The translations under genes were made by a program, and so were the position numbers. From Longimicrobiales bacterium (GTDB lineage: Bacteria; Gemmatimonadota; Gemmatimonadetes; Longimicrobiales; RSA9), in NCBI GenBank assembly GCA_035461765.1, contig DATHUY010000115.1:1-35471 (forward strand): a stretch of 35,471 bases of DNA, read 5' to 3'. The number at the start of each line of letters is the position of its first letter. Within the stretch, counting starts at the first letter, position 1. This document shows positions 9,303-30,726 of this stretch, in pieces. The notes beneath the pieces were generated by a model. The model was not told the origin of the DNA. It did not search any database and was given only the letters and a program-made list of their open reading frames with translations.

Positions 9303-9356
9303 GTGAAACAAATAAAGGGGCGGTCCATGCATGGACCGCCCCTTTATTTGTTTCAC
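9303..9356. terminator. 54-bp perfect palindrome, bidirectional intrinsic terminator
   Basis: Bases 9303-9329 and 9330-9356 are exact reverse complements with no spacer, centred on ATGCAT. The GC-rich core (GGGGCGGTCC / GGACCGCCCC) is flanked by A-rich sequence on one side and TTTATTTGTTT on the other. On either strand this reads as a strong hairpin followed by U-rich RNA. It sits between convergent genes ending at 9296 (+) and 9506 (-), so it can terminate both. Confidence 0.88.
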
Positions 9357-21258: not shown

Positions 21259-23448
21259 CTACCGGATGAACAGCATTTCGCGGTAACGCGGCAGGGGCCA
21301 GAGGTCATCGGGCACCATCCGCTCGAGGCGGTCGCACGCGGTGCGCACCTCGAGCATGGCCGGGACGACGTTGTCGCGCATGTGGTATGCCTTTGAATGC
21401 ACGGTGTCGCCACCGAGCTCCGCGTTCTGCTCATCCAGGCGGCCGAGTGACTCGACCAGGTCGTTGAGCGTCTCGTTCAGATCATCGATCAGCTTCTGCA
21501 GGCCGCGGGCGCTGCTGCTCGTGGACGTCATCTCACGGAAGTTGTGGAATGCGTCCAGCAGATCATCGAGATAGCGCACGGCCGCAGGCAGCACGATCGT
21601 GCGCGCGATTTCGGCGGTCATTTCGCCCTCGATGTTGACGGTCTTGAAGTACTGATCGAAGAAGATCTCCGCGCGCGACTCCACCTCGCGCTCGGTCATG
21701 ATCTCGTACTTCTCGAACAGCTTCACGTTCTTCGCGTCGGTGAGCTTCGGCAGCGCATCGAGTGAAGTCTTCAGGTTCAGGAGTCCGCGCTTCTCCGCCT
21801 CGGCATGCCACTCCTCGCTGTAGCCGTCGCCGTTGAAGATGATGTGACGGATCTTCGCGAGCTCGCGGGCGAGGATACGGTGCAGGACTTCGGCGAAATC
21901 TCCCTTCTTCGCCAGCTCCTTCTCGATCATCGTACACAGCTCATCGATCGATTCCGCCACGATCGCGTTCAGAACAGTCGCCGGAAACGAGATGGACTGT
22001 GACGCTCCGAGCGCACGGAACTCGAATTTGTTGCCCGTGAACGCGAACGGCGATGTGCGGTTACGGTCGCCCGCGTGCTTCGGCAGCTTCGGCAGTACGC
22101 GGCTCCCGAGACCGAGCAGACCGCCCTGCTTGCTGCTCTTCGCCCGGCCGGCCTTCTCGACCTGATCGAATACGTCCGTCAACTGATCCCCGAGGAACAC
22201 CGAGATGATGGCCGGCGGCGCTTCGTTCGCGCCGAGGCGGTGATCGTTGCCTGCATACGCGACAGCCGCCCGTACCAGATCCTGGTGCCGCTCGACAGCG
22301 CGCAGAACCGCCGTGCAGAAGAACAGGAACTGACGATTCTCGTGCGGGCTGTCACCCGGTTCCAGCAGATTCTGCGATTCCGTGCTGAACGACCAGTTCA
22401 GATGCTTGCCGCTACCGTTGACTCCCGCGAACGGCTTCTCGTGCAGCAGCGCGACCAGCCCGTAGTTGCGCGCAGTCTTCCGCAGGACCGACATCAGCAG
22501 CTGCTGATGGTCGGCCGCTATGTTGGCGTTCTCGTAGATCGGCGCCACCTCGAACTGTCCGGGCGCGACCTCGTTGTGACGTGTCTTCACCGGCACGCCG
22601 AGGCGGTACAACTCGCGCTCGACATCCATCATGAACGACAGGATCCGCTCCGGAATCGCGCCGAAGTAGTGGTCCTCCAGCTCCTGGCCGCGCGGTGGCT
22701 TGGTTCCCACCAGCGTCCGTCCGGTCGCCACCATGTCCGGCCGGCGATAATAGAACTCCTGATCGACCAGGAAATACTCCTGCTCCGGACCGAGCGTCGT
22801 GTGGACGTGCTGCGGGTCAACGCCGAAGAGCTTCAGCGCGCGCCGCACCTGCACCTCGAGCGCGTGGTTCGACCGCAGCAGCGGGATCTTCGTGTCGAGA
22901 GCGTCACCGGCCCATGACGTGAACGCTGTGGGGATGGCCAGGTAGCAACCGCTCGGACCATCCACCAGGAACGCCGGGGATGTCGGATCCCAGGCCGTGT
23001 AGCCGCGCGCCTCGAACGTCGCTCGCAGACCTCCCGACGGGAACGACGATGCGTCCGGCTCCCCCTGTATCAGGTCCTTGCCGCTGAACTCCGCTACTGC
23101 GCCGCCGCCCACGTTCGGCGTGATGAACGAGTCGTGCTTCTCGGCCGTCTGCCCAGTCAGGGGATGGAACCAGTGCGTGAAATGCGTCGCGCCCCGCTCG
23201 ATCGCCCATTCCTTCATTGCCAGCGCCACCGCGTCCGCCACCGCACCATCCAGCTCGGCACCACGGTCGATCGTCTGCATCAGCGCCTTGTATGTCGCCT
23301 TCGGCAGTCGCGACTTCATCTCCTGCAGACCGAACGTGCTCTCGCCGAAGATCTGCTCGATGTCCATGCCGCGCGTGTTCCCTGCCGGCCGCGGCGTCCA
23401 CCCCGTCACGGCGTTCAGCGGATCGTAGCGCGTACCTGTGCTGGCCAT
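21259..23448 (-). CDS. glnN: Glutamine synthetase type III
   Basis: ATP-dependent ligation of ammonium to glutamate. The 729-aa length and motifs are those of GSIII, not GSI: P-S-G-G-L-R-A-T-F-E-A-R-G-Y near residue 135, K-T-R-H-N-E-V-A-P-G-Q-F-E near 285, A-D-H-Q-Q-L-L-M, N-G-S-G-K-H-L-N-W near 350, G-N-D-H-R-L-G-A-N-E-A-P-P-A, and N-K-F-E-F-R-A-L-G-A-S-Q-S near 495. The C-terminal 200 residues are the usual helical extension. ATG 23448 is chosen because GAGAGG lies about 6 nt upstream; ATG 23454 sits right against that site. It is divergent from a type I enzyme, so the cell has two synthetases under one control region. Confidence 0.96.
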   Translation of the reverse strand: MASTGTRYDPLNAVTGWTPRPAGNTRGMDIEQIFGESTFGLQEMKSRLPKATYKALMQTIDRGAELDGAVADAVALAMKEWAIERGATHFTHWFHPLTGQTAEKHDSFITPNVGGGAVAEFSGKDLIQGEPDASSFPSGGLRATFEARGYTAWDPTSPAFLVDGPSGCYLAIPTAFTSWAGDALDTKIPLLRSNHALEVQVRRALKLFGVDPQHVHTTLGPEQEYFLVDQEFYYRRPDMVATGRTLVGTKPPRGQELEDHYFGAIPERILSFMMDVERELYRLGVPVKTRHNEVAPGQFEVAPIYENANIAADHQQLLMSVLRKTARNYGLVALLHEKPFAGVNGSGKHLNWSFSTESQNLLEPGDSPHENRQFLFFCTAVLRAVERHQDLVRAAVAYAGNDHRLGANEAPPAIISVFLGDQLTDVFDQVEKAGRAKSSKQGGLLGLGSRVLPKLPKHAGDRNRTSPFAFTGNKFEFRALGASQSISFPATVLNAIVAESIDELCTMIEKELAKKGDFAEVLHRILARELAKIRHIIFNGDGYSEEWHAEAEKRGLLNLKTSLDALPKLTDAKNVKLFEKYEIMTEREVESRAEIFFDQYFKTVNIEGEMTAEIARTIVLPAAVRYLDDLLDAFHNFREMTSTSSSARGLQKLIDDLNETLNDLVESLGRLDEQNAELGGDTVHSKAYHMRDNVVPAMLEVRTACDRLERMVPDDLWPLPRYREMLFIR

Positions 23449-23591
23449 ACCCATCCTCTCTGGTTCAGGGACGCCCGAGCGCCCCCCGTGGCGGACCGGC
23501 CGCGCCGCGGAAGGCGACACGGAACGGCGGGAAGATAGTGGCGTCGGCGGGCCATGAGCAAGACCCCAGCGTCACGTCTCATATTGCCTAC

Positions 23592-23684
23592 TGTGAACTT
23601 TCCGTTCAACGCCTGGACACAAACCTCCGATTTCGTGAACGAGCGTGCAGCCGAATTGTGCCAATTGTGCACTTTCCGCTTGAC
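23592..23684. promoter_or_regulatory. Two 19-bp direct repeats in the glnN-glnA control region
   Basis: TGTGAACTTTCCGTTCAAC (23592-23610) and TGTGCACTTTCCGCTTGAC (23666-23684) match at 15 of 19 positions and start 74 bp apart. The first contains the dyad TGAAC-N5-GTTCA. The second overlaps the -35 of the glnA promoter. AATTGTGC is also tandemly repeated at about 23654-23670. These look like regulator sites; the regulator is unknown. Confidence 0.5.
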
Positions 23685-23764: not shown

Positions 23765-25204
23765 ATGAGCCCCACGCGCGGGAGAAGGCCGGGCGCCGAG
23801 ATGACGGGACGGCCGGCAGCGGCCGTGCCGGAGCACAAGATCCGGCGACCGGCGGAGGATCGACGGTTCGGCGGGTTCGGGCGTCTGCAGCGGCCGGAGC
23901 TGTTGCGCCTGCTGGCGGAGTACAATGTGCGGTTCCTGCGACTGCAGTTCATTGACGTGATGGGTGTGCTGAAGAGCGTCGAAGTGCCGCGGAGCCAGTT
24001 CGAGAAGGCGCTGGATGGCGACATCATGTTCGACGGGTCGTCGATCGAGGGGTTCGTCCGGGTGGAGGAGTCTGACATGGTGCTGAAGCCGGACTTCGCG
24101 AGCTTCGTGGTGTTCCCGTGGAGCGACGCCGAGAACCGGGTGGCGCGGCTGATCTGCGATGTGCACCGCGCGGACGATGAGGTGTTCGAGGGCGATCCGC
24201 GGCGGGTGCTGGTACGGCAGATCGAAGCAGCGCGCAAGCTGGGATACGAGATGATGGCTGGGGTGGAGGCGGAGTTCTTCCTGTTCCACCGCTCGCCGGA
24301 GGGGTCGCCGACGCGAGTGACACACGACGCCGGGGGCTACTTCGATCTTGGCCCGGTGGACCTGGGCGAGGTTGCGCGGCGCGACATCGTGAATGTGCTG
24401 GAGCTGATGGGATTCGAGGTCGAGGCCGCGCATCACGAGGTCGCGCCGGGGCAGCACGAGGTGGATTTCCGCTATGCCGATGCACTGACCACGGCGGACC
24501 ATCTGGCAACCTTCAAGTTCGTGGTGCGCAATGTGGCATTCCAGCATGGCCTGCATGCGACCTTCATGCCGAAGCCCATTTACGGTCAGAACGGGTCGGG
24601 CATGCACACGCATCAGTCATTGTTCCGCGACGGAGCGAATGCGTTCTATGACGAATCGGACGAAGCGGGGATGTCGAAGGTGATGCGGTCGTATGCGGCG
24701 GGACTGCTGCGCCACGCGCGGGCGATGTGTGCCGTAACGAATCCGTTGGTGAACAGCTACAAGCGGCTGGTGCCCGGGTTCGAGGCGCCCGTGAACGTGG
24801 CGTGGTCGCACCAGAACCGCTCGCCGATGGTCCGCGTGCCTGCGCGGCGCGGGAAAGGCACGCGCCTGGAGCTGCGCATGCCGGACCCATCGGCGAACCC
24901 GTATCTCGCGCTGGCCATCCAGCTCGGCGCGGGGCTGGATGGCGTGCGGCGGAAGGCGGAGCCGCCGGAGCCGATCGACAAGAACATCTGGAAGCTGAGT
25001 GTGCGCGAGCGGCGGCGCTACAAGATCCAGGAGCTGCCGCGCGACCTCGGCGAGGCGATCACTCTGCTGAAGCGAAGCGGTTTCGTCCGCGACACGCTGG
25101 GCGAGCATGTCTTTCAGTACTTCGTCACCGCGAAGGAGCGCGAGTGGCAGGATTACATCGCGCAGGTGCACGACTGGGAGATCGAACGGTACCTGAATTA
25201 CTGA
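23765..25204 (+). CDS. glnA: Glutamine synthetase type I (alpha-like)
   Basis: Ligates ammonium to glutamate; forms dodecamers in this family. The 479-aa protein shows D-G-S-S-I-E-G-F (90-97), G-V-E-A-E-F-F-L-F (166-174), A-P-G-Q-H-E-V-D-F (227-235), N-G-S-G-M-H-T-H (276-283), N-P-x-V-N-S-Y-K-R-L (326-335) and R-L-E-L-R-M-P-D (367-374). The adenylylation loop of beta-type enzymes (N-L-Y-D-L-P) is N-I-W-K-L-S here, with Trp409 in place of the modified Tyr. So regulation by GlnE adenylylation is not expected. An N-terminal extension of about 35 basic residues precedes the catalytic fold; ATG 23801 would shorten it, but GGAG sits 6 nt before ATG 23765. Divergent from the type III enzyme. Confidence 0.96.
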   Translation: MSPTRGRRPGAEMTGRPAAAVPEHKIRRPAEDRRFGGFGRLQRPELLRLLAEYNVRFLRLQFIDVMGVLKSVEVPRSQFEKALDGDIMFDGSSIEGFVRVEESDMVLKPDFASFVVFPWSDAENRVARLICDVHRADDEVFEGDPRRVLVRQIEAARKLGYEMMAGVEAEFFLFHRSPEGSPTRVTHDAGGYFDLGPVDLGEVARRDIVNVLELMGFEVEAAHHEVAPGQHEVDFRYADALTTADHLATFKFVVRNVAFQHGLHATFMPKPIYGQNGSGMHTHQSLFRDGANAFYDESDEAGMSKVMRSYAAGLLRHARAMCAVTNPLVNSYKRLVPGFEAPVNVAWSHQNRSPMVRVPARRGKGTRLELRMPDPSANPYLALAIQLGAGLDGVRRKAEPPEPIDKNIWKLSVRERRRYKIQELPRDLGEAITLLKRSGFVRDTLGEHVFQYFVTAKEREWQDYIAQVHDWEIERYLNY

Positions 25205-25353: not shown

Positions 25354-26568
25354 TCACGTCAGTGGAAACTCGATCGTGACGGTGGTGCCGCTCTCGGTGG
25401 AATCGAAATCGACGGTGCCGTCGAGCTCGTCCTTGACGAGAGCGTTGACGATGGAGCGGCCGCTGCCGATGACCTTGTCGGGCTGTCTGGCGGAAGCGGA
25501 GCCGATGCCGTTGTCGGCGACCTGGAGGCGTGCACGGTCTCCGGTCCTCTCGAGCCGGATCACCAGGCTGCCGTGGCGGTTGCCGGCGATCTCGTGGTGA
25601 TCGGGGAATCCGTGCCGGAACGCATTGGTGATCAGCTCGTTGAGGGCGAGAGCGAGGGCGAAGCCGCGGCGCTCATCGAGGCTCCCGACATCGCCCTCGA
25701 GCGTGACATCGACACGCCGATCGGGGTCCCAGGCACTGCGCAGGCGCTGGGACAGCTTTTCCACGATCTCGCGCGCGGGGACGCCGCGATAGTTCTGGCG
25801 CCTAAGCGCATCATGCACGAGCAGGAATGAACGGAGCCGGTGCTCGAGGCTGGAAAGGGCCTCGTCGGAAGGTCGCGGCGGGCGCCGGTTCCGTTCCATG
25901 CTGAGCAGACCCATGATCACCGAGAGGTTGTTGCGTACCCGGTGGTCGAGCTCCTTGAGCAGGAGCGCGCGCTCTTCCGCATCGGCACGTGCGCGCTCGT
26001 AGAGCTCATAGTTCTGGTCGGCGAGGTCGCGGAGCTGCTGGTTGGCGCGCTTGAGCGCAACTTCGGCACGGTGCACTCGCAGGCGCGACTCGATGCGGGC
26101 GGTCAGCTCGGCCACGTGGAACGGCTTGGCGACGTAGTCGTCGGCGCCGGCCGCGAACGTTCGCACCACGTCGTCCGGAGCAGTACGGGCAGTGACCATG
26201 ATGATCGGCATCATCGCATCGTGCCGATCCTTGATCTCACGGCAGATGGCCCAGCCATCGCGGCCGGGGAGCATGGCGTCGAGCAGGATGAGGTCGACTT
26301 CCTTCAGGAATCCGAATGCCTCCTCGCCTCGCGCCACGGTCACGACGCGGAACCCCTGGGCCTCGAGCAGATCGGAGAACATCTGGCGCGCGAGGGGCTC
26401 GTCGTCGACGACGAGAATGGAGCTGACACGCGCGTCCGCCCCGGGCACGGGCTGGGGCTGCTCGGCAGGCCTGGCAACGCGCGTCGATGCACGCGCTGCG
26501 ACATTCTGCCTCTCAGCGGTCATCGCTGTATTCCGGTCATCATTGTGTCGATCGAAGGAAGAGAACAC
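25354..26568 (-). CDS. Receiver plus HWE/HisKA_2-type histidine kinase
   Basis: A 404-aa soluble signalling protein with a reversed hybrid layout. An N-terminal receiver (about 50-165; phosphoacceptor Asp97 in L-L-D-A-M-L-P, Lys148 in V-A-K-P-F) is followed by a linker coil. Next comes a HisKA_2-type phosphotransfer helix with His209 in L-D-H-R-V-R-N-N-L, then an ATPase domain (L-N-E-L-I-T-N-A-F-R-H-G, D-N-G-I-G). The H-R-V-K/R-N-N-L motif is typical of kinases that partner ANTAR regulators. GTG 26568 follows the ANTAR stop directly (AAGGAG-TAA-GTG), implying coupling but with short spacing; ATG 26523 is an alternative. No membrane segment. It probably phosphorylates the upstream ANTAR protein. 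Confidence 0.9.
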   Translation of the reverse strand: MFSSFDRHNDDRNTAMTAERQNVAARASTRVARPAEQPQPVPGADARVSSILVVDDEPLARQMFSDLLEAQGFRVVTVARGEEAFGFLKEVDLILLDAMLPGRDGWAICREIKDRHDAMMPIIMVTARTAPDDVVRTFAAGADDYVAKPFHVAELTARIESRLRVHRAEVALKRANQQLRDLADQNYELYERARADAEERALLLKELDHRVRNNLSVIMGLLSMERNRRPPRPSDEALSSLEHRLRSFLLVHDALRRQNYRGVPAREIVEKLSQRLRSAWDPDRRVDVTLEGDVGSLDERRGFALALALNELITNAFRHGFPDHHEIAGNRHGSLVIRLERTGDRARLQVADNGIGSASARQPDKVIGSGRSIVNALVKDELDGTVDFDSTESGTTVTIEFPLT

Positions 26569-27159
26569 TTACTCCTTCTGCAGTAATGGAGCGGCGAGGA
26601 GAATCTTGCGCGCGAGGTCGACCATTGGCGTATTCTTGTCCTGGCTGGTCTTCTGCAGGAAGCGGTACGCATCGCGTTCGCTGAGGCGGCGTGATTCCAT
26701 GAGCAGCCCCTTGGCTCGCTCGATGATCTTGCGCTCTTCGAGTCGCAGCTCGAGCATGTCGCGCTGTCGGCGTGCATCGAGCCACTCGTCGAAACGTGCA
26801 CGTGCGACGGCGATCGCCGGAGCGAGGTCATCGGGGTCGACCGGCTTTACCAGGTAGTGGAAGACCGGCGCCTTGATCGCCTCATCCACGGTGCGCGAGT
26901 CGCTGTAGGCGGACAGGATGATCATGGGAATGGGACGATCGGCCGCAATCTCGTGAGCGGCCTCCGGACCGGTCATCGCCGGCATGCGAATGTCGAGGAA
27001 TGCGAGATCGGGGCGTGTCTCACGCGCGAGCTCGACGGCTTCCCGCCCGTTGGCCGCGGTGGCCACGACCTGATGGCCGAGTGTCTCCAGCTGACTGGCG
27101 AGTGCGAGGTTGTGCAGCGACTCGTCGTCGGCGATCAGGACCCGGAGCGATTCACTCAT
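26569..27159 (-). CDS. ANTAR-domain response regulator (RNA antiterminator)
   Basis: A 196-aa protein with an N-terminal receiver (acidic pair Asp11-Asp12, phosphoacceptor Asp56, Lys105) and a C-terminal ANTAR domain (about 136-190; R-L-E-E-R-K-I-I-E-R-A-K-G-L-L-M...A-Y-R-F-L-Q-K). Known ANTAR proteins (AmiR, NasR, EutV) bind twin hairpins in mRNA leaders and prevent termination. ATG 27159 is preceded by GGAG 8 nt upstream. The kinase gene starts at its stop codon, forming a two-component pair. Its own leader contains an intrinsic terminator at 27208-27244. The neighbouring glutamine synthetases hint at nitrogen control, as for NasR, but that is inference. Confidence 0.92.
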   Translation of the reverse strand: MSESLRVLIADDESLHNLALASQLETLGHQVVATAANGREAVELARETRPDLAFLDIRMPAMTGPEAAHEIAADRPIPMIILSAYSDSRTVDEAIKAPVFHYLVKPVDPDDLAPAIAVARARFDEWLDARRQRDMLELRLEERKIIERAKGLLMESRRLSERDAYRFLQKTSQDKNTPMVDLARKILLAAPLLQKE

Positions 27160-27207
27160 GCGTGGGACTCCACTGTGTGCAGGTGTTCTGGTGGGGACGC
27201 CGACATG

Positions 27208-27244
27208 AAAAAAGCGCCCACCCCGAATCAGGGACCTAGGCGCT
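27208..27244 (-). terminator. Intrinsic terminator inside the ANTAR gene leader (attenuator)
   Basis: On the minus strand AGCGCC (complement of 27239-27244) pairs with GGCGCT (complement of 27213-27218), with an inner UCCC/GGGG stem and a 6-nt loop, followed by six T residues (complement of 27208-27213). No minus-strand gene lies upstream, because the next gene (from 27458) is divergent. So the terminator interrupts the ANTAR gene's own leader 48 nt before its start. An alternative pairing of TCAGG with CCTGA on the same RNA would break it. Confidence 0.75.
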
Positions 27245-27290
27245 CGCGACCTGACTAGAATGTATTGGTCATGACGTCGTCTTGCGCCGA

Positions 27291-27319
27291 ATAGTGTAGC
27301 GTGCAGAACAGGATTGCAA
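27291..27319 (-). promoter_or_regulatory. Possible promoter upstream of the attenuator
   Basis: On the minus strand TTGCAA (complement of 27314-27319) and CACTAT (complement of 27291-27296) are 17 nt apart; TACACT at 15 nt is another reading. The match is modest, but the position leaves a leader of about 120 nt that includes the terminator. Confidence 0.3.
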
Positions 27320-27457
27320 GTGTTATGCTCAACATTCGGGCGGGGTGCAAATTGGCCCTGCTCTTGCACCTGTGCGGGTTGTAACGCGGGCATCGGACCC
27401 CGGCCGTGCCCGTGGAGGAAAAATTGGAATGCCAGGTACTCGCAGCACGGGATCAGG

Positions 27458-29578
27458 ATGAAGACACTTCTCTCGTTCGCAGCCGTTGCAGGCTGGCTCA
27501 GCATACAGGCCGCGGTCGCGCCGGCGCTAACGCAGGCCGACGCGGCGGCTGAGGCGCCGCAGGCAGGCGGGGGCCCGAGTGCGTCCGCTACGGCGAGCGC
27601 CGCGGAAGCTGAAGCCATGCGGGCCGCGCTCGACCGCGATCTCCGGGAGATCATCGCGCGTCCCGGCTGGAGCGGCGATGAGTGGAGCGTGATGGTGCGG
27701 TCGCTCGACCGTGGCGACACGCTCTTCTCCTTCGGCGGCGACAGGCCGCTCGCGCCTGCATCGAACATGAAGCTCTTCACGACTGCGGCCGCGCTGTACT
27801 ACCTCGGGCCCGACTTCCGATACAACACGTTCCTGATGGCGACCGGGCCGATCCGTGACGGCGTGCTGGAGGGCGACCTGGTGCTTTACGGCACAGGCGA
27901 TCCCACGTTCAGCAGCCGGTTCGGCGACAACCTGCGGGTATGGAAGGCCTTTGCCGACACACTGCAGGCGATGGGCGTGCGTGAGATCCGCGGCAGCATC
28001 ATGGGCGACGGCTCCTATTTCACGGGGCCCGGCGCGGGCGAGGGCTGGCAGCAGGGCTACATGAATGCGTCGTATGCCGCCTCCGCGGGCGCACTGAGCT
28101 TCGCGGAGAACATCGCGATGCTGCAGATCGCACCCGGGGCGGAAGACGGCTGGCGGCCGGAAGTGCGGCTGGTCCCGGGCGGCGAGGGTATCGCCATCGT
28201 GAACCAGGCCACGACACGTGCCGGCGGGTCGACCCGGATCAGTGCGACACGCATGGCTTATGACGGCCCGATCGTGGTGCGCGGCCAGATCGGACGTGGC
28301 GCGAAGCCGGTACTGCGATCGGTTCCGGTATCGGACCCGGCGCGCCTGGCCGCCGCAACGTTCCGTGCGGTGCTGGTGGATCGGCAGATCACGATACAGG
28401 GCGGCCTCGGATCCGCGCATTCGAGTGAGGAGTCGCCGGTCACGGGACGGTCGGTGTTTGCGCCGGCACTCGACTCGCAGGCGCCGATACGGGTTCTGGC
28501 CGTACACACGTCGGAGCCGATCCTCGACATCCTGACGATCATCAACAAGCGCAGCCATAACCTGATGGCGGAGCAGGTGCTGCGGACAGTTGGACGGGTG
28601 GCGGTCGGCGAGGGCAGCGTCGCAGGGGGACGCCGCGCGATCGAGCACATGCTCGCACAGGAAGGTCATCCTGCCGACATCGCCGTGTATGACGGCTCGG
28701 GGCTGTCCGTGCTGAACCGGGCGAGCGCGGGAGACTTCATCGATCTGCTGGCGCTGATGGCGGCCTCGCCCATGTGGCCCTACTACTGGGAGACGCTGCC
28801 GGAGGCGGGAGCATCGGACGGCCTGCGGCGAATGTACCGGACGGGCGCCGAAGGCAACCTGCGAGCGAAGACGGGCACCATTGACCGCGTGTCCGCTCTT
28901 TCGGGTTACGTGTCGTCGGCGAACGGCGAGCGACTGGCGTTCAGCATCATCAGCAACAATGTCCCGTCGACGTGGATGGCCAAGCGTGTCGAGGACGCGA
29001 TTGGCGGACGCCTCGCGGAGTTCGAGCGGCCGCTGGATGCGCCGGCCCGGCGAGTCGACCCGGGCGAGCGGGCAGCAGGGGGTACATCCGAGGATGGCGT
29101 CGCGGCACCCGCACCGGTACCGACGCAGCCGCGGGAGCCCGCGGCGACTCAGACGCATCGAATCGGACGCGGCGAGACCCTGAGCCATCTTGCGCGCCGA
29201 TATGGTGTGAGCGTCGCGGACATCGAGCGTGCGAACCCCGGGCTGAACCCGCGTCGTGTGCAGGTCGGCCAGCTGGTCCGCATCCCGACCCGGGACGGCC
29301 CGGTTCCGACACCGGACCAGACGACGGGAACGCCGCCCGCGAGCAACGCGCCCGCGGCAGGTCAGCCTGCCACGGGACAGCCGGCGGCCGCGCAGCCGCC
29401 CCGGTCAGACCCGGCTGCCGCACAGCCGGCGGCCGCGCGCACGCATACGATACGGAGCGGTGACACGCTGGACGGAATCTCGAAGCGCTACAGTACCACG
29501 GTGAGCGCGCTGCAGGCGGCGAATCCCGGGCTGAACCCGCGGCGCCTGATCCCGGGGAAGACGATTCGTATCCCGTAA
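27458..29578 (+). CDS. dacB: D-Ala-D-Ala carboxypeptidase/endopeptidase (PBP4, S13) with two LysM domains
   Basis: Periplasmic penicillin-binding protein that trims or opens peptidoglycan peptide bonds; 706 aa. After a signal peptide (about 1-27) the S13 domain shows the three active-site motifs: S-N-M-K (Ser102, Lys105), S-H-N in N-K-R-S-H-N-L-M, and K-T-G in R-A-K-T-G-T. The S13 part ends near residue 530. Two LysM modules follow (H-R-I-G-R-G-E-T-L-S-H-L-A-R-R-Y-G and H-T-I-R-S-G-D-T-L-D-G-I-S-K-R-Y), separated by a Pro/Ala/Gln/Thr-rich linker. E. coli PBP4 has no LysM, so this is a fused glycan-tethered form. No good Shine-Dalgarno is near ATG 27458; GGAGGA lies about 38 nt upstream. Confidence 0.92.
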   Translation: MKTLLSFAAVAGWLSIQAAVAPALTQADAAAEAPQAGGGPSASATASAAEAEAMRAALDRDLREIIARPGWSGDEWSVMVRSLDRGDTLFSFGGDRPLAPASNMKLFTTAAALYYLGPDFRYNTFLMATGPIRDGVLEGDLVLYGTGDPTFSSRFGDNLRVWKAFADTLQAMGVREIRGSIMGDGSYFTGPGAGEGWQQGYMNASYAASAGALSFAENIAMLQIAPGAEDGWRPEVRLVPGGEGIAIVNQATTRAGGSTRISATRMAYDGPIVVRGQIGRGAKPVLRSVPVSDPARLAAATFRAVLVDRQITIQGGLGSAHSSEESPVTGRSVFAPALDSQAPIRVLAVHTSEPILDILTIINKRSHNLMAEQVLRTVGRVAVGEGSVAGGRRAIEHMLAQEGHPADIAVYDGSGLSVLNRASAGDFIDLLALMAASPMWPYYWETLPEAGASDGLRRMYRTGAEGNLRAKTGTIDRVSALSGYVSSANGERLAFSIISNNVPSTWMAKRVEDAIGGRLAEFERPLDAPARRVDPGERAAGGTSEDGVAAPAPVPTQPREPAATQTHRIGRGETLSHLARRYGVSVADIERANPGLNPRRVQVGQLVRIPTRDGPVPTPDQTTGTPPASNAPAAGQPATGQPAAAQPPRSDPAAAQPAAARTHTIRSGDTLDGISKRYSTTVSALQAANPGLNPRRLIPGKTIRIP

Positions 29579-29616
29579 CACCCGTGCCGGTGGGCGGCTC
29601 CCGGTCGTGAGACGGA

Positions 29617-29653
29617 AGAGCCGCGGCGCGCGATGCGCCGCGGCTCTTTTCTT
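29617..29653 (+). terminator. Intrinsic terminator after the PBP4-like gene
   Basis: AGAGCCGCGGCGC (29617-29629) pairs perfectly with GCGCCGCGGCTCT (29635-29647) around a 5-nt loop, followed by TTTCTT. It lies between the plus-strand PBP4-like gene and the converging NlpC/P60 gene and may stop both, but the T-tract favours plus-strand termination. Confidence 0.88.
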
Positions 29654-29667
29654 CGCATGCATGTCAG

Positions 29668-30726
29668 CTAGTCTGCGAGCAGCCTGCGTGCGGAGACGAA
29701 CATGGCGGCGAGCCGATGCTCGAGCGGCTCGGAGCCGGCGAGGTCGTTGATGTGCACGCCGCCGTTGCCGAGTGCGGAATGGATGATGAGTGGACCGCCG
29801 AGCGAGATGGCCACGTGGCTCACGCGGGCCTCGGGCTCGGCGAAGAAGAGGAGATCTCCGGGCCGCAGCTCGCTCAGCTCGAGACCGAGCGCTACGCCGG
29901 TGCCCGCGCGCTCCTGGAGATCGGAGTCGCGAGGGAGGGCGATCCCGTGCATCCACATGACTGCCTGCGTGAATCCCGAGCAGTCGACGCCATTCAGCGT
30001 GACGCCGCCCCACAGGTAGGGTGCGCCATACCAGCGCCGGGCGGTGCGTGCGATGCTCTCACCGCGGTGCGGGAACCAGTCACTCAGGCGATCGACATCG
30101 ACGACATCGCCGTTGGCCACCATGCCGCTGCGGCCGTCCGGAAGATGATAGGCACCCGAGTGCCGCGTCAGGCGTGCGCCCCAGGGCAGGCGTGCGATAA
30201 TGCGGCCATCGGCGTCGATGAGCTCTGCGCCGAGAGATACGACCGACTCGCCATTGCTGCCCCGCTCCCAGGCGAAGGCCCAGTCGTCGTCGCCGCCCTG
30301 GAGATATCCCTGATAGGCCCAGCCGACATAGCCGTCCTCGCCGCGGATGCGATACCAATCGTCGGCGTGGGCGAGAAGCTCGACGCGCATGCCCATGACC
30401 AGCTGAGAGATCTGCGGGGCCGGCAGCCGCGGCTCGGCATAAACCGGAGCCACTGCGGAGCGGACCAGGGCGTGGCGGGCGGCGCCGAGTGATGCGTCGG
30501 GCAGCCGCATGACGTTGTCGACGGCGGTGAGTCCCTGATCTCGCAGCTGCGCGACCAGCGCGGTCACAGCGGCGGGATGCGTGGACTGACCGCGCAGCAC
30601 GACCGTCGCACCGTCCTGCTGGGCGACGACATCGAAGACCCCGGACCGGAAGTCAGGGACGAACTGGCGTCGGACTTCTTCGATCGCGTCGTCGAGCGCA
30701 CCGCCGGTATCGCTGCGCGACGTCAT
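29668..30726 (-). CDS. SH3-NlpC/P60 peptidase, YkfC-like, no signal peptide
   Basis: A 352-aa cysteine peptidase of the C40 family. An N-terminal BON-like stretch (about 11-75) is followed by two SH3-like regions (about 90-143 and 155-213) and the NlpC/P60 domain (about 222-350). The catalytic residues appear to be Cys249 in G-V-D-C-S-G-F, His304 in V-S-H-V-A-I and His316 in I-I-H-S-A. The domain order matches YkfC, which cleaves gamma-D-glutamyl bonds of murein peptides during recycling. No signal peptide or membrane helix precedes the fold, consistent with a cytosolic recycling role. It is the last gene of an ATGA-coupled operon with two small related proteins. The BON assignment is tentative. 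Confidence 0.9.
   Translation of the reverse strand: MTSRSDTGGALDDAIEEVRRQFVPDFRSGVFDVVAQQDGATVVLRGQSTHPAAVTALVAQLRDQGLTAVDNVMRLPDASLGAARHALVRSAVAPVYAEPRLPAPQISQLVMGMRVELLAHADDWYRIRGEDGYVGWAYQGYLQGGDDDWAFAWERGSNGESVVSLGAELIDADGRIIARLPWGARLTRHSGAYHLPDGRSGMVANGDVVDVDRLSDWFPHRGESIARTARRWYGAPYLWGGVTLNGVDCSGFTQAVMWMHGIALPRDSDLQERAGTGVALGLELSELRPGDLLFFAEPEARVSHVAISLGGPLIIHSALGNGGVHINDLAGSEPLEHRLAAMFVSARRLLAD

Follow-up and report, generated by a model that had tools for sequence, protein, structure and literature searches.

Putative transcription attenuator in the leader of an ANTAR response regulator–kinase operon of a Longimicrobiales bacterium

Results

The ANTAR–kinase gene pair and its neighbours

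The window, by which we mean the whole analysed stretch of 35,471 nucleotides from a Longimicrobiales bacterium (genome G000 in the comparisons below), carries on its minus strand a gene (26569-27159) for a response regulator of 196 aa with an ANTAR RNA-binding domain. Both domains were recognised by Pfam (Response_reg, 1.9e-25; ANTAR, 2.9e-21), and the combination of a receiver with PF03861, the latter scoring 75.4 bits against a cut-off of 27.3, identifies the product as an ANTAR response regulator, the sole ANTAR match found in the window genome. The closest solved structure is 1s8n, a "putative antiterminator" with receiver and ANTAR domains (183 residues, E 1.3e-46), which we take to be Rv1626 (PdtaR) of Mycobacterium tuberculosis. 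Rv1626 shares the receiver–ANTAR arrangement with the window protein; a difference is that the window's partner kinase has an N-terminal receiver domain of its own. The comparison covers the proteins. The residues D11, D12, D56 and K105, presumably the phosphorylation site of the receiver, are invariant among the 12 orthologues. A second ANTAR gene is present in five of the 12 family genomes (G002, G004, G005, G009 and G011; loci L126, L127, L128, L129 and L142), and no terminator hairpin could be seen by eye upstream of L126 and L127.

Directly downstream of the regulator gene, in the same presumed operon, lies a gene for a receiver-HisKA_2-HATPase histidine kinase (25354-26523, minus strand, Pfam), the likely start of which is the ATG at 26523 within an open frame that begins at 26568. 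A kinase homologue adjoins the ANTAR gene in all 12 family genomes (the window and 11 relatives). The upstream neighbour, dacB, is divergent and runs on the plus strand from about 27458. On the other side, a type I glutamine synthetase gene (23765-25204, plus strand) is convergent with the kinase–ANTAR pair (25354-27159, minus strand) and adjoins it in 10 of the 12 family genomes (the window and nine others; it is not in the G003 and G004 stretches), which suggests a nitrogen link for the pair. This gene and that of a type III glutamine synthetase (21259-23520, minus strand) are divergent neighbours in the window, and a tandem AATTGTGC repeat (gaattgtgccaattgtgcac), noticed by eye at 23653-23672 upstream of the type I gene, is possibly an operator. 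An ammonium transporter gene was considered as a likely ANTAR target and rejected, there being no PF00909 match in the window genome. This genome, rated 99% complete, thus differs from the 14 control genomes, all of which have such a transporter.

A terminator-like hairpin in the leader

The leader of the regulator gene contains, on the minus strand, a GC-rich hairpin of 9 + 5 bp (27245-27212) with a 3-nt bulge and an ATT loop, which reads GAGCGCCTA-GGT-CCCTG-ATT-CGGGG-TGGGCGCTT and continues into the remaining Ts of a six-T run (27208-27213). A stable GC-rich hairpin thus stands directly before a U run, as in an intrinsic (Rho-independent) terminator. The 71-nt segment folds with -24.5 kcal/mol (z -2.39; 3 of 200 shuffles were equally stable), and the hairpin with its T run alone with -19.5 kcal/mol, a value reached by none of 60 dinucleotide shuffles of the leader, the best of which gave -11.5 kcal/mol. 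Sequence, folding and shuffles therefore bear out the initial annotation as to a hairpin with six Ts in this leader. The 6-nt inner loop TGATTC that had also been proposed is replaced in the predicted fold by the apical triloop ATT.

A scan of the window for hairpins at least as stable as -15 kcal/mol, with 5 Ts among the next 7 positions, returned eight sites on both strands of the 35 kb, one palindrome being counted twice. A perfect palindromic, bidirectional terminator-like hairpin lies at 9311-9348 (-29.3 kcal/mol on either strand). A scan for perfect-stem terminators between 25500 and 30500 gave no sites, and we ascribe its missing the leader hairpin to the 3-nt bulge. Rfam models gave no match at the gathering score anywhere in the window; at a relaxed threshold three sub-threshold matches appeared within 27150-27480, the best with 13.6 bits, where the gathering score is 40.

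Conservation of the leader in relatives

The DNA upstream of the ANTAR orthologue was compared in 12 genomes of the family, the window genome included. Absence of the hairpin from relatives had been named in the initial annotation as one of two observations that would speak against an attenuator; a counterpart was found in 10 of the 12 genomes. These ten leaders share one order of elements: TTGC-N17/18-CAnn[AT]T, an interval of 11-42 nt, a GGUC-type block and the GC-rich hairpin. The leaders of G005 and G008 contain no match to the promoter-like element, no GGTC-arm match and no terminator site. One of the ten, that of G011, stands on a different contig from the G011 copy of the ANTAR gene, which is cut at a contig end, and was found through the pattern GAGGTCACGGCGCGCC and not through the gene.

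The T run is less constant than the stem. An uninterrupted run of at least 4 Ts follows the stem directly or after 2 nt in six of the ten leaders (G000, G002, G003, G006, G007 and G010); it is interrupted in G001, G009 and G011 and absent in G004. G001 is the closest relative, with an ANTAR protein 98% identical to that of the window, and its T run is interrupted nonetheless. In the nine leaders in which hairpin and T run could be scored together, all but G004, the native sequence was better than 60 of 60 shuffles, with a margin over the best shuffle of only about 1 kcal/mol in G001, G002 and G011.

A covariance model, R1, was built from six leaders, G002 and G011 not being among them. Its best hit was the orthologous leader in eight genomes, namely the six source genomes and these two, the leader being the top hit in its own genome at E 2e-5 (G011) and E 0.0028 (G002). 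At E 0.1 the model returned nothing in G000 or G005, and in G001 and G008 a single match elsewhere than in the orthologous leader; the hairpin of the window itself scored 14.9 bits (E 0.081), level with background matches. Neither a promoter-like nor a GGTC-arm match is present at six ANTAR genes (L014-L019) that come from a different family of the order. Terminator-like hairpins are seen at three of these distant homologues, near the start codon in L014 and further up in L018 and L015, that of L015 being weak; L016, L017 and L019 have none. The L014 hairpin, TGTTTTCG, occupies roughly the stretch 20-55 nt upstream of the ANTAR start codon and folds with -20.3 kcal/mol; the other parts of the unit are absent there.

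A promoter-like element upstream of the hairpin

Upstream of the hairpin, a promoter-like element (27291-27319, minus strand) consists of TTGCAA (27319-27314), a 17-nt spacer and CACTAT (27296-27291), from which transcription would start at about 27284. The corresponding pattern, TTGCNN-N16..18-CANN[AT]T, occurs once in each of the ten hairpin-bearing leaders and in neither of the two leaders without a hairpin; per leader, it arose in 0-7 of 200 shuffles. The pattern was composed after the leaders had been read, so that its frequency is partly circular, and the G011 leader, found later, fits it. A sigma-70 consensus scan of 25500-30500 found no promoter. The promoter-like element, conserved in 10 of the 12 genomes, would place the hairpin downstream of a predicted start.

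Gene order and the origin of the hairpin

The gene upstream of the leader differs among the relatives. It is the divergent dacB in G000, G001, G004, G005 and G006, a co-directional acpS in G002, G008, G009, G010 and G011 (named by the Pfam match ACPS, 5.9e-18, in G010 and in the other four by homology to the G010 protein), and a co-directional NlpC/P60 gene in G007; the G003 stretch begins at a contig end. The leader unit is present next to divergent dacB in G000, G001, G004 and G006, next to acpS in G002, G009, G010 and G011, and next to the NlpC/P60 gene in G007. Since it occurs with divergent and co-directional upstream genes alike, the most fitting reading is that of a leader terminator (attenuator) belonging to the antar-kinase operon. 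That the hairpin is not the terminator of an upstream gene, as the initial annotation had argued from the divergent neighbour, is upheld by its presence in four of the five genomes with divergent dacB; in these four the T run is clean in G000 and G006, interrupted in G001 and missing in G004.

The GGUC block and an alternative helix

A conserved AGGTC block (27248-27252, minus strand) lies just upstream of the terminator stem and is able to form base pairs with GCCT (27241-27238) in the 5' arm, which makes it a possible antiterminator. When the leaders are aligned at the 5' arm of the terminator, the GG of GGTC is invariant (10/10) and T and C are each kept in nine of the ten. Pairing of GGU and one or two flanking bases with GCC(U/C) of the arm is possible in 46 of 50 cells (92%); slid controls reach 36-58%. 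Because both need the 5' arm, the GGU/GCC(U) helix cannot form together with the terminator.

Two pairs of the alternative helix are changed on both sides, in three cells altogether, and its covariation score is 0.240 against a shuffled mean of 0.138; at the same time, 61 of 500 shuffles equalled it in doubly changed pairs and 215 of 500 in the number of pair types. The helix is short, with 4-5 pairs of which two are invariant. Its 3' side is also part of the terminator and under constraint from it, so that the counts lack independence, and the statistics ignore relatedness among the genomes. Support for this helix is therefore modest.

Other elements were considered for the same part of the leader. 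The alternative pairing of TCAGG with CCTGA suggested in the initial annotation is available in the window, where both strings are present; as a conserved switch it falls away, because none of the other 11 leaders has TCAGG followed by CCTGA (in G005 the two strings stand in reverse order at a great distance from each other, and G009 has TCAGG alone). A leader peptide was rejected by eye, the short frame ATGACCAATACATTCTAG of G000 having no visible counterpart in the other leaders, as was GAGGU as a ribosome-binding site, most leaders lacking a start codon at the normal distance.

Search for the known ANTAR target RNA

As described in PMC3369931, the ANTAR target consists of two hairpins, each of at least 3 bp, with hexaloops carrying A1 and G4, and ANTAR proteins work on terminators in leaders, the 5' base of the terminator being able to fold into the hairpin P2; in PMC8164766, where the motif is restated, one point variation in the loops is tolerated. 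None of the 12 leaders contains the dual A1/G4 hexaloop motif (300 nt upstream of the start codon and 40 nt of the gene; 192 nt upstream in G003), and in the window genome it is absent even when two deviations are allowed. Within the same 300 + 40 nt, any single strict hexaloop hairpin occurs in three of the 12 genomes; in the leader proper, in one of ten, which is the chance level (14-24% in shuffles). Relaxation to one deviation over both loops gave one leader of ten (G002; shuffles 7-14%), and to two deviations five of ten, again the level expected by chance (shuffles 29-56%). The competing helix does overlap the 5' arm of the terminator, but it contains no A1/G4 hexaloop closed by a standard pair. 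EutB, sought in four genomes as a natural positive control for the search, was not found, and the search therefore follows the published definition alone. Upstream of the type I glutamine synthetase gene, the dual motif was absent from all of the eight genes examined out of ten, those of G001 and G006 being left out because they lie at contig ends.

A hexaloop of A1/G4 type closed by a C.C mismatch, GGU(or GGC)-C-[A.GGCG]-C-GCC, was seen in five of the ten leaders (G003, G004, G006, G009 and G011) and is absent from the leader of the window itself.

Search for a shared regulon

The pattern GAGGTCACGGCGCGCC, with up to two mismatches, gave 356 matches in the 12 genomes against 413 for the reversed control, and was slightly above control only in G003 and G011. 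The other R1 matches, read by eye (L184, L185, L186, L188, L189 and L191), revealed no like leader; that in L186, the one locus for which reading frames were listed, is a hairpin just after the end of a frame. A regulon sharing the leader element was thus rejected, no other like leader having been recognised in the family; R1, which missed the window's own leader at E 0.1, could therefore miss like elements in G000.

Discussion

The leader of the ANTAR–kinase operon contains a real terminator-like hairpin that has been kept in evolution and that probably limits the amount of regulator made. Judged from the nucleotide sequences, the hairpin is rather probably an intrinsic terminator serving as the attenuator of the antar-kinase operon, with a short antiterminator as the likeliest switch. 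Transcription would begin some 40 nt before the hairpin; by default, many transcripts would end at the T run and some would read on into the regulator and kinase genes. The GGUC block would pair as GGU(C) with GCC(U) of the 5' arm and so exclude the terminator, and a short antiterminator at GGUC, probably dependent on a protein, may be the likeliest switch. We class the element as an attenuator and not as an ANTAR target, because the known ANTAR RNA target is absent.

A terminator that acts constitutively and in part, lowering expression of the regulator with no dedicated switch, so that drift of the T run would amount to tuning, is possible, though we think it doubtful: the quality of the T run varies widely among the relatives while the hairpin stays, and the family yielded no second leader of this kind, whereas the nearly invariant GGUC outside the stem is not needed by a plain terminator. 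The persistence of the hairpin with no clean T run in four of the ten leaders would also suit a 5' stem-loop for mRNA stability, or a part of a short stable leader RNA with its own role, which we consider improbable in view of the runs of at least 4 Ts in six of the ten, the six Ts in the window and a terminator strength above all 60 shuffles in each of the nine scorable leaders. That the hairpin serves a co-directional upstream gene as its terminator, or once did so, is very unlikely; acpS does occupy that position in five relatives, yet four of the five genomes with divergent dacB have the hairpin, G008 has acpS and no hairpin, and the promoter-like element precedes the hairpin in all ten hairpin-bearing leaders.

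The initial annotation had put forward autoregulation. By the known rule, a phosphorylated ANTAR protein would recognise two A1/G4 hexaloop hairpins in the leader of its own gene (a dual-motif RNA) and prevent termination in a positive feedback, and it speaks for such a circuit that the sole ANTAR match found in the genome is encoded behind a terminator and that, according to PMC3369931, proteins of this type act on leader terminators. The missing dual motif (0/12 leaders), the relaxed matches near shuffle expectation, none of them in the window genome, and the mere 11 nt between the -10-like element and GGTC in G002, which leave little room for P1, make such canonical autoregulation unlikely; single hits are at chance level, and TCAGG/CCTGA is not conserved. 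Self-control may still run through some other RNA signal. There is a slim chance that the operon is governed by its own ANTAR protein by way of a non-canonical target with one hairpin, GGU(or GGC)-C-[A.GGCG]-C-GCC; if true, this would mean a new ANTAR target architecture together with direct autoregulation.

The preferred reading, an attenuator with a short antiterminator, can be set beside known systems. Protein-dependent antitermination of the BglG/SacY type employs a small antiterminator that overlaps the terminator. Here, as there, a short helix is exclusive with the terminator; the RNA is different, and this is a resemblance only. The ANTAR leader attenuators of eut in Enterococcus faecalis, nasF in Klebsiella oxytoca and amiE in Pseudomonas aeruginosa, as described in PMC3369931, likewise have an intrinsic leader terminator, the 5'-base sequence of which can form a competing small hairpin, as may be so in the window, and the genes are tied to nitrogen management, as is suggested for the operon of the window. 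Unlike these, the leader of the window is devoid of dual A1/G4 hexaloop hairpins, and the first gene behind its terminator is the regulator itself.

These results suggest that an ANTAR–kinase operon beside a glutamine synthetase gene is itself under transcription attenuation, although its leader lacks the RNA motif that one would expect for an ANTAR protein. Should the ANTAR protein bind this leader, the accepted recognition rule would need to be widened; if it does not, another factor would control the supply of an antiterminator.
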